Source: Chelativorans petroleitrophicus (GTDB taxonomy: Bacteria > Pseudomonadota > Alphaproteobacteria > Rhizobiales > Rhizobiaceae). From it: 64,000 nt of DNA. The stretch lies in contig NZ_JAODNV010000006.1 of assembly GCF_025398195.1 (NCBI RefSeq), forward strand, positions 172,001-236,000. The letters run 5' to 3'. Shown here piece after piece: positions 16,116 to 26,630 of the stretch (positions within the stretch are counted from its first letter, which is position 1; every line of letters starts with the position of its first letter). The notes below the pieces were generated by a model, which searched no databases, was not told the origin of the DNA, and worked only from the letters and a program-made list of their open reading frames with translations. The translations under genes were made by a program, and so were the position numbers.

Positions 16116-17093
16116 TCAGCTTGCAGCCGAGAGGCGGCCAAGCATTCCGCGCTCCGGCGCCTCGCCCCCAAGTGCCCGGGTGATGGTGGTGACGTTGTGG
16201 TCGATCATGCCGATATAAGTGCCTTCATAGGACCCATGCGGTCCCATGGCGTCGGAAAAGAGCTGGCCGCCGACCTTCACCGTGTGGCCGCGCGCCGCCG
16301 CGCCCTCGATCAGGGCGCGCACGTTCCGGTCCGAAACGGAGGATTCGACGAAGACGGCGCCGATCCTGCGCTCGACCAGCGTGTCAACCAGCCCGGCAAC
16401 GTGCGCCAGGCCTGCCTCGCTTTCCGTCGAGATGCCCTGGATCCCGAGCACCTCGAAATCATAGGCGCGCCCGAAATAGTTGAAGGCATCGTGCGCCGTC
16501 ACCAGAACCCGGCGCTCCTCGGGAATCGTCGCCAGTACCTTCCGGGAATAGGCGGACAGCGCCTCTATATCAGCGAGGTGCTTTTCCGCATTGGCGCGAA
16601 ACTCCGCCTCGCCCTCGGGCCTGGCCTCGATCAGCGCGTCGCGAACCGCCACAACCACCTTGGCCCACAGGTCCGGGTCCATCCAGACATGCGGGTCATA
16701 CCGGTTCTTGTACGCATCATGGGCCAGCAGGAGTTCGGCAGGGAGCGCCTCGGCAACGGCAACCACGCGGCGGCGCGCCGAAAGCGAATGAAGAAAATCC
16801 TCCATCTGCGCTTCCAGATAGAGCCCGTGCCAGAGAACCAGATCGGCCCTGGTCATGGCCAGGATGTCGGTGCGGGTCTGCCTGTAGGCGTGCGGGTCCA
16901 CTCCGGGTCCCATGAGGCCGCGAACGGTGACCAGATTGCCGCCCACCTGCCGGGCGGCATCGGCAATCATGCCCGTTGTGGAGACGACCGAAAGCGGCTC
17001 CTCTGCCCTCGCTAGGGAAGCGAGCGGCAATCCTGCCGCAAGGCCAGCGAGGCCTGCCGCGGCGAGCAGTGAGCGGCGCGTAAACTCTGCCAT
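16116..17093 (-). CDS. Mn/Zn ABC transporter substrate-binding protein (TroA/SitA-like)
   Basis: 325 aa periplasmic cluster A-I binding protein. The N-terminus has RR plus a hydrophobic stretch ending in ASLARA, a signal peptide that might be Tat- or Sec-dependent. Expected metal ligands are H68 (DPHAY), H135 (DPHVWMD), H201 (TAHDAF) and D281 (LFSDAMG): the His3-Asp set of TroA, which binds Zn or Mn. There is no His-rich loop of the ZnuA kind, which slightly favours Mn. It is the first gene of the operon. The leader upstream contains several TGCAAA/TTTGCA palindromes, suggesting Fur-family (Mur/Fur) repression. Confidence 0.9.
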   Translation of the reverse strand: MAEFTRRSLLAAAGLAGLAAGLPLASLARAEEPLSVVSTTGMIADAARQVGGNLVTVRGLMGPGVDPHAYRQTRTDILAMTRADLVLWHGLYLEAQMEDFLHSLSARRRVVAVAEALPAELLLAHDAYKNRYDPHVWMDPDLWAKVVVAVRDALIEARPEGEAEFRANAEKHLADIEALSAYSRKVLATIPEERRVLVTAHDAFNYFGRAYDFEVLGIQGISTESEAGLAHVAGLVDTLVERRIGAVFVESSVSDRNVRALIEGAAARGHTVKVGGQLFSDAMGPHGSYEGTYIGMIDHNVTTITRALGGEAPERGMLGRLSAAS

Positions 17094-17121
17094 GTCCTAC
17101 CTTTCAGGCCGGCAAGTCGAA

Positions 17122-17154
17122 TTGCAAGTGCAAACCATTTGCAAGTCTGCAAAC
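17122..17154 (-). promoter_or_regulatory. Proximal Fur-family-like operator cluster of the Mn/Zn importer
   Basis: TTGCAAGT occurs twice, 17 bp apart (17122 and 17139). Within the cluster, TGCAAA (17129-17134) and TTTGCA (17138-17143) form a 15-bp palindrome with a 3-bp centre, and another TGCAAA follows at 17149-17154. It lies 29-61 bp before the binding-protein start codon, a place where repressor binding would block expression. Confidence 0.5.
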
Positions 17155-17182
17155 AAATTCAGCAATCCATTGTTCCAATTAA

Positions 17183-17203
17183 TGCAAATGAGAATGATTT
17201 GCA
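17183..17203 (-). promoter_or_regulatory. Distal Fur-family (Mur/Fur-like) box of the Mn/Zn importer
   Basis: TGCAAAT (17183-17189) and ATTTGCA (17197-17203) form a perfect 21-bp inverted repeat with 7-bp arms; the centre GAGAATG resembles the core of Fur boxes. It is 90-110 bp before the start codon. Rhizobial Mur (Mn-responsive Fur) operators have arms of this kind, so Mn-dependent repression is the likely role. The assignment rests on pattern similarity only. Confidence 0.6.
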
Positions 17204-17274
17204 AGTAGCCGTACGGATGCTGCGGCCTGGAATGGTAAGGGTGCTGCGGCAGCCCACGCGTCATCCCGCACCTC

Positions 17275-24476: not shown

Positions 24477-25856
24477 CTATTGTTGTTCCCCGTTATTGCT
24501 AGACTTGATGGCGTCCCACTCCCGCTGGATGGCATCGGCCGCCTCCTGCGCGGATGCGCCGCCGACATAATTGACCATGCCCGTCCAGAACGCGCCCGCG
24601 CCGATGCGGCCGGGCATCAGGTCGGAACCGTCGAAACGGAAGGTGGTGGCGTTCGTGAGGATTTCGCCCTGCTTCTTGGCCGCGTCATTCGCGTAGGCTT
24701 CCGGATTTGCCTCCTTGAAGGCGGTGAGGAATCCCGACTGCGCCATCCAGATTTCATGGGCGATGGGCGTCTTCAGGAATTCGATGAAGGCGCGTGCGGC
24801 CTCCGAATCGGAGGTGATGGCGACCACGTTTCCGGAGCCGAGAACCGGGCTGCCGAGATCGCGGTCCGCATAGGCGGGCAGATAGAAGAAGTCCACATCC
24901 ACCCCCACTTCGGTTCCCTCGGGGAAGAAGCTCGGGATGAAGGAGGCCTGGCGGTGCAGATAGCAGCGCGGCGGTACCGAGAAAAGCCCGGCCGGGCTGT
25001 CGCGGAAGTCCGTCGAGACCACCCCTTCCGTGCCGCCGGCCACGAAGTCGTTGTTCTTGGCGAACCAGCCGAACTCCTCGATTGCTGCGATAACGCGCTC
25101 GTCGTTAAACGGAATCTCGTTCGTAACCCACTGGTCGTAAACCTCCGGGGGCTGGCTGCGCAGCATCATGTCTTCCACCCAGTCCGTGGCGGGCCAGCCG
25201 GTGGCGCCGCCGGAGCCGAGGCCAATGCACCAGGGCGTGCCGCCATCGGCGACGATCTGCTCAGTCAGCGCCTTCAGGTCCTCCATGGTTTCAGGCACTT
25301 CGTACCCGGCATCCTCGAAGTTCTCGGGCACATACCAGACCAGGGATTTCACGTCCGCCTTATACGGGAAGGCATAATAAGCTTCCGTGCCGTCCTTGCC
25401 CGCATAGGTGCCGAGCTCGACCCAGGATTCACCCGCGGCATAGTTCTCGCGCACCCAGTCCGCCGTCTCCTGACCAAGCGGCGTGAGATATCCCTGGGCG
25501 GCCAGATTTGCGGCAAGGCCGGGCTGCGGGAAAATGGCGATGTTCGGCGGGCTGCCGGCCTGCGAGTCGATGACGATCTGCTGCTCGAAGGAATCGGAGC
25601 CGGAGAAGGAAACGGTCGCACCCGTGGCCTCGGCGAAATAAGCGATCACCGACTTGAATATTTCCTGCTCCTGGCCAAGCCAGTCGCCGAAGATGGAAAG
25701 GTTCTGGCCCGAGAGGTCATATTGGGCGGCAAAGTCCTCGTAGCTCTGCCAGCTGAAGCGGCTGTCCTCGCCCGGCGCGAATTTCAGGTCCTGCGCAAGG
25801 GCGGTGCCGCCGGAAAGCACCAGCGCGGACACGCCGGCCAGCATCCACTTTTTCAT
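24477..25856 (-). CDS. aglE: Alpha-glucoside-type ABC substrate-binding protein AglE
   Basis: 459 aa periplasmic protein. The signal peptide MKKWMLAGVSALVLSGGTALA-Q ends with a clear A-x-A site. The mature sequence has the AglE layout: 'LSIFGDWLGQEQEIFKSVIAYFAEATGATVSF', 'NIAIFPQPGLAANLAAQGYLTPL' and 'CYLHRQASFIPSFFPEG'. The ATG at 25856 follows GGAGGAAACG; an in-frame GTG at 25868 is rejected. It heads the transport operon, with a sigma70-like promoter candidate about 110 bp upstream. Confidence 0.88.
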   Translation of the reverse strand: MKKWMLAGVSALVLSGGTALAQDLKFAPGEDSRFSWQSYEDFAAQYDLSGQNLSIFGDWLGQEQEIFKSVIAYFAEATGATVSFSGSDSFEQQIVIDSQAGSPPNIAIFPQPGLAANLAAQGYLTPLGQETADWVRENYAAGESWVELGTYAGKDGTEAYYAFPYKADVKSLVWYVPENFEDAGYEVPETMEDLKALTEQIVADGGTPWCIGLGSGGATGWPATDWVEDMMLRSQPPEVYDQWVTNEIPFNDERVIAAIEEFGWFAKNNDFVAGGTEGVVSTDFRDSPAGLFSVPPRCYLHRQASFIPSFFPEGTEVGVDVDFFYLPAYADRDLGSPVLGSGNVVAITSDSEAARAFIEFLKTPIAHEIWMAQSGFLTAFKEANPEAYANDAAKKQGEILTNATTFRFDGSDLMPGRIGAGAFWTGMVNYVGGASAQEAADAIQREWDAIKSSNNGEQQ

Positions 25857-25964
25857 CGTTTCCTCCACAATGGACTTTTACAACGGACTTTGATCCCAGT
25901 GGTCCCCGGCCTGTTCCGCAACCTCCTGCAATTCAGAAGGTAACCCAGGCGCTTGGGGATTTCC

Positions 25965-26223: not shown

Positions 26224-26297
26224 GTTTGCGCCGTACACGAGAATGTGGGCATGGAAAAATAACAATTTAATATTGCATTAATCCGCAATCGGTGACA

Positions 26298-26393
26298 TAA
26301 AAGAGGGGGTTACGGTTGTTTGCTGCTGGAACCGTAACCCCCCATCTGGGATGTGGTTGCTCAAAATTTTTGGTGCTGAAACAGTTCCCAGAT
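26298..26393 (-). ncRNA. Predicted small RNA of about 90 nt (new candidate)
   Basis: On the minus strand a near-consensus promoter (TTGGCA, 17 bp, TATAAT) ends at 26396, and a strong Rho-independent terminator ends near 26298. This defines a transcript of about 90 nt with no open frame. Predicted folding: a 5' stem in which ATCTGGGA (26393-26386) pairs with TCCCAGAT (26351-26344) around a 34-nt loop containing an A/T-rich single-stranded stretch, then the 13-bp terminator stem with a 12-nt loop (CCAGCAGCAAAC). The start should be near 26389-26391, so the 5' stem may lose a pair or two. I do not recognise it as a named alphaproteobacterial sRNA family. Confidence 0.6.
26299..26342 (-). terminator. 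Rho-independent terminator of the predicted sRNA
   Basis: On the minus strand GGGGGTTACGGTT (26342-26330) and AACCGTAACCCCC (26317-26305) form a perfect 13-bp stem with a 12-nt loop. TCTTTTAT follows directly (26304-26297). The T-run is present only on the minus strand, which sets the direction of transcription. Confidence 0.75.
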
Positions 26394-26395
26394 CA

Positions 26396-26439
26396 ATTAT
26401 ATGCCTGGTGCAAGCCGGTGCCAAGCGACACCGGCTTGC
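26396..26439 (-). promoter_or_regulatory. Promoter of the predicted sRNA with a 30-bp palindrome over the -35
   Basis: TTGGCA (26424-26419) and TATAAT (26401-26396) on the minus strand are 17 bp apart, with five of six and six of six consensus matches. A perfect inverted repeat, GCAAGCCGGTG (26410-26420) and CACCGGCTTGC (26429-26439), covers the -35 and part of the spacer. A dimeric repressor binding there would block RNA polymerase, so the sRNA looks regulated. Confidence 0.6.
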
Positions 26440-26630
26440 TAAAACCACCTGTCAGCCGCCTCAACAGCCCGATCTGCTGAACGGGAAAAATGCTTCCCTT
26501 GCCAGAGGGCTTCTTCGGCTGACCTCACTGAAAACATTAGGTTATCAATTCGATATACACTGTCATTTAGCATAAACGAAACTGCTCTCCTAGTGCATTT
26601 TTTCGCGCCGAACCGCAAGCCGTCTGCCTG

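Follow-up and report, generated by a model that had tools for sequence, protein, structure and literature searches.

The question raised by positions 26298-26439 of the window (the whole 64-kb stretch of Chelativorans petroleitrophicus DNA that was analysed, from a genus known for degrading chelators such as EDTA) is whether the promoter-like hexamers, palindrome and stems found there make up a small RNA gene under repressor control, as the original prediction held, or whether they belong to something else. The literal elements of that prediction are all present in the sequence. On the minus strand, TTGGCA (26424-26419) is followed by a 17-nt spacer and TATAAT (26401-26396); palindrome arms of 11 bp, GCAAGCCGGTG/CACCGGCTTGC, lie inside 26410-26439 and cover the -35-like TTGGCA; an 8-bp stem, ATCTGGGA/TCCCAGAT, pairs 26386-26393 with 26344-26351; and a 13-bp, G+C-rich terminator stem (26330-26343 with 26305-26317) is followed by the tail TCTTTT, in which the uninterrupted T-run is only 4 long. 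With a loop of about 12, this terminator is omitted by a terminator scan that allowed loops of 3-8. Folding of the 96-nt segment is predicted at -37.6 kcal/mol (z = -4.56), which was equalled by 0 of 200 shuffles, and a search of the 3.96-Mb genome of the window finds the element once. As a promoter, the hexamer pair matches at 11 of 12 positions in the window's genome, and the surrounding 901-bp region contains two promoter-like sites of at least 9/12, compared with 0.7 +/- 0.8 in shuffles.

Comparison with related genomes suggests that the examined stretch is the 3' 40% of a larger unit: a separate gene of approximately 230 nt for a structured noncoding RNA, comprised of four domains and ended by a terminator, a reading that is held here with moderate confidence. 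The proposed parts of this gene are as follows.

26298..26527, minus strand: the entire RNA gene as proposed, ~230 nt, with its 3' end at the terminator and its 5' end estimated to +/- 15 nt
26528..26580, minus strand: A/T-rich upstream block, family TNACGTATACATTTT, degenerate in this genome; probable promoter region
26451..26523, minus strand: domain I, an extended hairpin with branches, whose closing stem is GUCAGCCG/CGGCUGAC (arms 26516-26523 and 26451-26458)
26410..26439, minus strand: domain II, hairpin GCAAGCCGGUGUC/GGCACCGGCUUGC, earlier taken for an operator palindrome, with TTGGCA (26419-26424) within it
26394..26409, minus strand: A/U-rich linker that holds TATAAT (26396-26401)
26344..26393, minus strand: domain III (P1), stem AUCUGGGA/UCCCAGAU closing a 34-nt loop, kept in 11 of 13 species
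26372..26381, minus strand: conserved unpaired loop motif UUUCAGCACC, in the family roughly UUUNAGNACC
26299..26343, minus strand: domain IV, intrinsic terminator GGGGGGUUACGGUU..AACCGUAACCCCC plus UCUUUU, supported by covariation

The distribution of the element was determined at several levels of sensitivity. BLAST among 61 genomes detected it only in its own genome and in two congeners, with both matches lying within the proposed RNA, and a search of a plasmid collection returned zero matches. Covariance models were built stepwise, R1 from 2 sequences, R2 from 4 and R3 from 13. The R2 model spans the last ~100 nt at the 3' end and detects the element in 13 of the 16 Chelativorans genomes, with E-values from 5e-24 to 0.0075, and the weakest of these matches (G001 and G003) are positioned in the expected synteny. 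In the three other congeners (G013, G014 and G008), R3 gives no credible match (one at 21.6 bits, E 0.48). Outside the genus, no credible match was obtained with R2 over 346 or R3 over 394 family genomes (109 genera), noting that searches over more than 40 genomes were run with stricter filters, which distant members could escape. The R3 scores are 59-80 bits within the genus, for sequences that are themselves part of the model, vs. at most 32.9 bits outside of it; the best R2 score outside the genus is 35.7 bits (G334). At this search sensitivity, the RNA family looks genus-specific.

The weaker candidates were set aside. The R2 matches in seven genomes outside the genus (G334 and six at 22-25 bits) were rejected after alignment, which covered mostly the terminator. 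R3 matches in eight other genomes at 26.7-32.9 bits were also rejected. Alignments of the R3 candidates were inspected for six loci (L071, L052, L073 on the other strand, L072, L075 and L074), as distinct from L076, L077 and L078; in most of those inspected, the terminator was matched and the P1 loop was largely skipped, and the loop motif was seen in none of them, nor in the loop of L052. The R1 match L010 (26.3 bits) was dropped once its sequence had been inspected. A pattern search of genome contigs yielded 12 matches. Ten of them, with at most 28.4 bits or no score, were dropped, and the remaining two reach 78.7 and 88.6 bits.

No existing RNA family accounts for these loci in Rfam 15, with 0 matches at the gathering score in the 64-kb window, three weak and implausible matches at the locus under relaxed thresholds (13-18 bits, below the cut-offs), and only four matches at E <= 2 across the 13 homologous loci, all below the gathering scores. 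The covariance search that had been suggested along with the original prediction returned no Rfam family at the locus, with matches to the purpose-built model in 13 of the 16 genus genomes. The suggested comparison among related genomes gave a divided answer, in that the stems are conserved with compensatory changes and the promoter pair is not. With its occurrence in 13 of 16 congeneric genomes, its compensatory changes and no Rfam family, the claim of an undescribed noncoding RNA with an 8-bp stem and a terminator is supported, and the sequences probably define an undescribed RNA family at the level of the genus Chelativorans.

The 3' part of this family can be followed pair by pair. In the terminator, 97.4% of cells are paired across the 13 species and 6 of 12 pairs are changed on both sides, again 6 of 12 when G001 and G003 are left out; the middle of the stem is G-C in seven species and A-U in six. 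With P1 and the terminator combined (alignment A10, 13 sequences), 95.7% of cells are paired, vs. 88.3% in shuffled and 42-56% in slid alignments, and both-side changes occur at 8 of 18 pairs, vs. 3.5 in shuffles, most of them from the terminator; these pair counts lean toward the P1/P2 structure, to which both A10 and the covariance models were fitted. P1 itself is nearly invariant across species. Two close species, G001 and G003, lack its 3' arm, and the two P1 changes of G003 in the 13-row count are spurious, the arm being missing there. Without these two species, both-side changes occur at 2 of 7 P1 pairs, namely the outer pair (five U-A, three C-G, two U-G and one U-U) and one inner pair that is C-G in a single species (G010). 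With the outer P1 pair included, which was added to the count after the rows had been viewed, 97.1% of 207 cells are paired and 8 of 19 pairs are changed on both sides. The stem has no advantage for its own over cross-species partners (-10.9 vs. -10.7, with the split tuned per sequence), because it is nearly invariant. In the loop, the looser pattern TT-N(1-2)-A[AG]-N-AC has its first match at a P1 offset of 12-14 in 13 of 13 species.

Two further observations concern this end of the element. In the loci L048 and L047 of G001 and G003, the 3' arm of P1 has been lost through a deletion of ~12 nt, as measured against G007, and the loop motif and terminator stay. Additionally, a conserved A/T-rich block, GGATTAATGCAATATTAAATTGTTATTTTTCC, follows the terminator at 26253..26284 on the minus strand, outside of the RNA; it is similar in G015 and G006 and is possibly an operator or the promoter of aglE, the sugar-transport gene described below.

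The palindrome was the basis for the proposal of control by a dimeric repressor. A repressor site is expected to keep its sequence. The arms of domain II instead read GCAAGC/GCUUGC in the window and GUAAGC/GCUUAC, GGCAGAU/AUCUGCC and others elsewhere, and the hairpin is found at about the same position in all 13 species, although in G015 only in a longer fold. Between 6 and 58 nt before the P1 start, the fold is matched in stability by 0-7 of 200 shuffles in 11 of the 13 species, and by 22 and 29 of 200 in G015 and G010. Conservation of pairing was further resolved with a scan in which the 5' half of each species was paired with the 3' half of every other species, using fixed halves at 57 centres. 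Own pairing exceeded cross pairing in three peaks, domain I at -100, domain II at -30 and the terminator at +70, where the own advantage was 3.6, 5.9 and 4.6 kcal/mol for 24-nt halves and 5.2, 5.1 and 7.3 kcal/mol for 48-nt halves. With 24-nt halves, 5, 7 and 2 of the 13 species, respectively, paired best with their own half, as did 4, 3 and 7 with 48-nt halves. Away from these three peaks and their neighbours, the difference was at most 3.2 kcal/mol.

A pair count for domain II was restricted to 7 of the 13 species (alignment A11), since a MAFFT alignment of all 13 with their flanks misplaced some domain II arms. In A11, whose species were picked for similar 5' stem starts and whose 10 counted pairs were hand-chosen from folds, 90% of the cells are paired, a share that falls to 31-46% in slid alignments. 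Of the five shuffle measures, two are unremarkable (133/500 and 261/500) and the other three do not exceed 3/500. Domain II keeps its pairing and not its sequence, and is therefore unlike an operator; as judged from these comparisons, the supposed repressor site looks like a hairpin of the RNA itself. An apparent operator over the -35 can thus be an RNA hairpin within a longer gene, a situation that is invisible from one genome.

A second hairpin lies further 5'. Comparable domain I hairpins, with differing closing-stem sequences, are found in many of the 13 species, though the single-sequence fold is weak (z from -0.2 to -3.3), with at least 13 of 200 shuffles folding equally well in 9 of 13 species. 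A three-species alignment of the whole region contains 9 of 73 pairs that are changed on both sides and kept. Folded at full length (26298..26527), the proposed gene reaches z = -6.45 with 0 of 200 shuffles as good, and its opposite strand folds almost equally (z = -5.48). No U-tract was seen by eye after domain II, so a transcript that includes domain I would be expected to reach the terminator. The comparison thus supports a terminator-ended element with the P1 stem, a conserved loop and two hairpins directly 5' of it; with these two further conserved hairpins, the predicted RNA length of ~90 nt would be too short.

A single transcript probably spans all four domains; its start would lie just 3' of the A/T-rich block near 26528-26580, and the intrinsic terminator would end it. 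Between -330 and -100, the best-conserved 14-mers are grouped around TACGTATACATTTT at approximately -150. The best shared 14-mer accumulates 32 mismatches over 13 species vs. 56-57 in five shuffles, a difference inflated by relatedness; 8 of 13 species have TACGTATACATTTT itself between -145 and -154 with no more than 3 mismatches, and the best match of the window lies elsewhere with 5 mismatches. No species shows a good sigma-70 pair upstream of the long RNA (7-9/12). As a separate observation made by eye, many of the 13 species share the words TCGACA, GTTTACG and TTTACNGTAAA on the 5' side of the TACGTATACATTTT block, in the stretch ~150-300 nt before P1; these are perhaps regulator sites.

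The strongest competitor to the long transcript is a separate sRNA of ~90-95 nt that would start just after TATAAT, with domains I and II then representing operator DNA or the 3' part of another transcript. This reading is possible but unlikely. The 11/12 promoter of the window's genome sits inside the proposed long RNA, at a locus where the upstream block is degenerate; P1 and the terminator alone form a compact conserved unit, and by eye an ATA-containing, -10-like hexamer occurs shortly before P1 in most species. However, the TTGGCA/TATAAT pair, originally read as the promoter of the RNA, is strong in only 1 of 13 genomes: the best -35/-10 pairs next to P1 in the other 12 reach 6-8/12, and the -35 is not conserved. 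A start 6-8 nt after the -10 would fall in the 5' arm of P1 and would lose the outer covarying pair, and the covariation of this outermost pair would be odd if transcription began well downstream of the window's TATAAT. The complementarity of domain II, kept despite sequence change, is also unlike that of an operator. In the window's own species, a short transcript from the internal TATAAT start is possible. On this evidence, the original prediction was correct about the existence of an RNA and wrong about its operator, its promoter at the family level and its length.

Within the preferred reading of one long RNA, the covarying terminator, the lack of a common ORF and the variable downstream genes mark the locus, as judged by sequence, as stand-alone, noncoding and provided with its own terminator, which is required of a trans-acting base-pairing sRNA. 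No ORF is shared across the 13 species, the longest frames inside the region being 0-42 aa and dissimilar between all species but the closely related G001 and G003; a peptide or 5'-region protein reading was dropped in the absence of a frame common to the species. We infer, with less certainty than for the gene itself, that the RNA acts in trans, the conserved loop being the one feature that points to it. Hairpins I and II and the terminator would then hold and protect the RNA, and the P1 stem would present the unpaired UUUNAGNACC-like motif, which may pair with target mRNAs, perhaps with the help of Hfq at the terminator tail. Should the loop motif guide mRNA pairing, the family would offer a small, tractable system for testing a conserved seed carried on drifting stems. 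The same four hairpins could instead belong to a scaffold or protein-binding RNA, a new class of ~230 nt for which antisense pairing is not the mode of action; a protein or ligand would in that case bind at the CUGGGA/UCCCAG stem, which hardly varies, with its UUUNAGNACC-like loop. Such a role is unlikely.

A processed or internally started short form might also coexist with the long RNA, which would be cleaved in the linker to release an active P1-terminator piece. The unstructured and often A/U-rich linker between domain II and P1 is consistent with such a cut, as is sequence conservation that is strongest in P1, its loop and the terminator; but processing would be an extra step which nothing here requires, and it is rated as unlikely, less probable than the separate short sRNA.

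The genomic context of the RNA brings in two transport systems, the first of which is represented by its downstream neighbour.

24477..25868, minus strand: ORF of an aglE-type sugar-binding protein gene, the downstream neighbour

The name of this gene is that given in the original prediction, and NCBIfam has no match for the protein at E <= 1e-10. The position of the RNA upstream of agl on the same strand was borne out for aglE: all 12 genomes that have both on one contig carry its ortholog downstream of the RNA in the same orientation, at distances of 0.3-7.3 kb. A convergent gene intervenes in at least six of them. The intervening opposite-strand gene is of ManC type in G004, G007, G010 and G001, an MFS gene in G005 and a LacI regulator in G012, with Pfam runs made for the intervening genes of G004, G005 and G012 only. 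In G003, a ManC-type gene occupies the equivalent place and agl is on another contig. The aglE gene is found in 13 of 13 RNA-bearing genomes and is absent from two of the three RNA-less ones (E <= 1e-60), a co-occurrence that is suggestive and is not corrected for descent.

Action in cis on the agl operon, as a leader or attenuator, would agree with this shared strand and co-occurrence, and with the three genomes (G000, G015 and G006) in which only 0.3-0.45 kb separates the RNA from aglE. An opposite-strand gene in between, however, precludes a place for the RNA in the 5' UTR of agl in at least six of the 12 genomes, and no antiterminator pairing was seen by eye. The leader was thus rejected as a family-wide role, and the reading as a whole is very improbable. 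Less credible still is an untranscribed DNA element of operator and palindromes. Such an element would fit the good folding of the inverted repeats on the opposite strand; against it stand the conserved loop motif, the T-tail on the minus strand, stems that keep their complementarity at three places as the arm sequences drift, and a single genome copy, which is not that of a REP-type repeat.

On the 5' side of the RNA and on the other strand, the adjacent gene encodes the binding protein of a metal ABC transporter in 11 of 13 loci (tblastn). Pfam ZnuA was confirmed for four of these genes, and NCBIfam is undecided between zinc and manganese, with all scores below the cut-offs. The metal-binding gene is 2.6 kb from the RNA in G006, and in the window it is 9.4 kb away on the other side of the RNA. 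Its ortholog is absent at E <= 1e-80 from G011, which has the RNA, and is present in G008, G014 and G013, which lack a credible RNA match; given these mismatches, control of the metal operon was left as synteny only. In the RNA-less G013 (L026 6267-7515), the divergent metal-binding gene and aglE were observed ~280 bp apart. Dyads resembling Mur sites, judged by the Mur box consensus, occur in 8 of 13 loci at a distance of 326-804 nt on the 5' side of P1, with none at the A/T-rich block, and none is present within 1.1 kb upstream of the RNA in the window's genome. Elsewhere in the window, two Mur-like dyads on the minus strand, TTGCAAATGGTTTGCA and TTGCAAATCATTCTCATTTGCA (17085-17220), precede a ZnuA/MntC-type binding protein gene (~16119-17100, minus strand), the gene that adjoins the RNA in other species. 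The sugar link, earlier offered as the idea of a sugar-responsive sRNA from its genomic position alone, and the metal link are both purely positional.

In the literature on Chelativorans, agl and Mur- or manganese-related small RNAs, a description of this RNA was absent from the titles and abstract openings of the matches listed, a set outside of which subscription papers lie. Chelativorans appears in the small-RNA literature in single mentions only, among the matches listed. One mention concerns the Paracoccus sRNA candidate 'Intergenic 28', for which a homolog in Chelativorans sp. BNC1 is given, in a row that also names Rhodobacter and Mesorhizobium species (PMC5107571). Mur and sitABCD are treated in PMC5575495. 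For S. meliloti sRNAs, 39 RNA family models have been constructed (PMC3927594), and the consulted part of that paper makes no mention of Chelativorans, BNC1, sitA or agl. For Chelativorans, this study contributes an undescribed RNA family with comparatively good support.

AbcR/alpha-r15 and the other alpha-r families are alphaproteobacterial sRNAs with exposed loop motifs. The RNA considered here shares an exposed loop motif with them, and none of these families is among the four sub-threshold Rfam matches at the 13 loci. With the trans-encoded sRNA families of the Rhizobiales, for example those modelled in PMC3927594, it shares a stand-alone intergenic location, several hairpins and synteny within a narrow clade; it differs in that R2 and R3 have no credible match in the family genomes covered outside the genus, the published models having been compared only through Rfam. 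Finally, it resembles an sRNA under repressor control, with the operator covering the -35, in the palindrome that overlaps a -35-like hexamer in the window's genome, and it differs from such a system in that the arms of this palindrome diverge between species while their complementarity persists.
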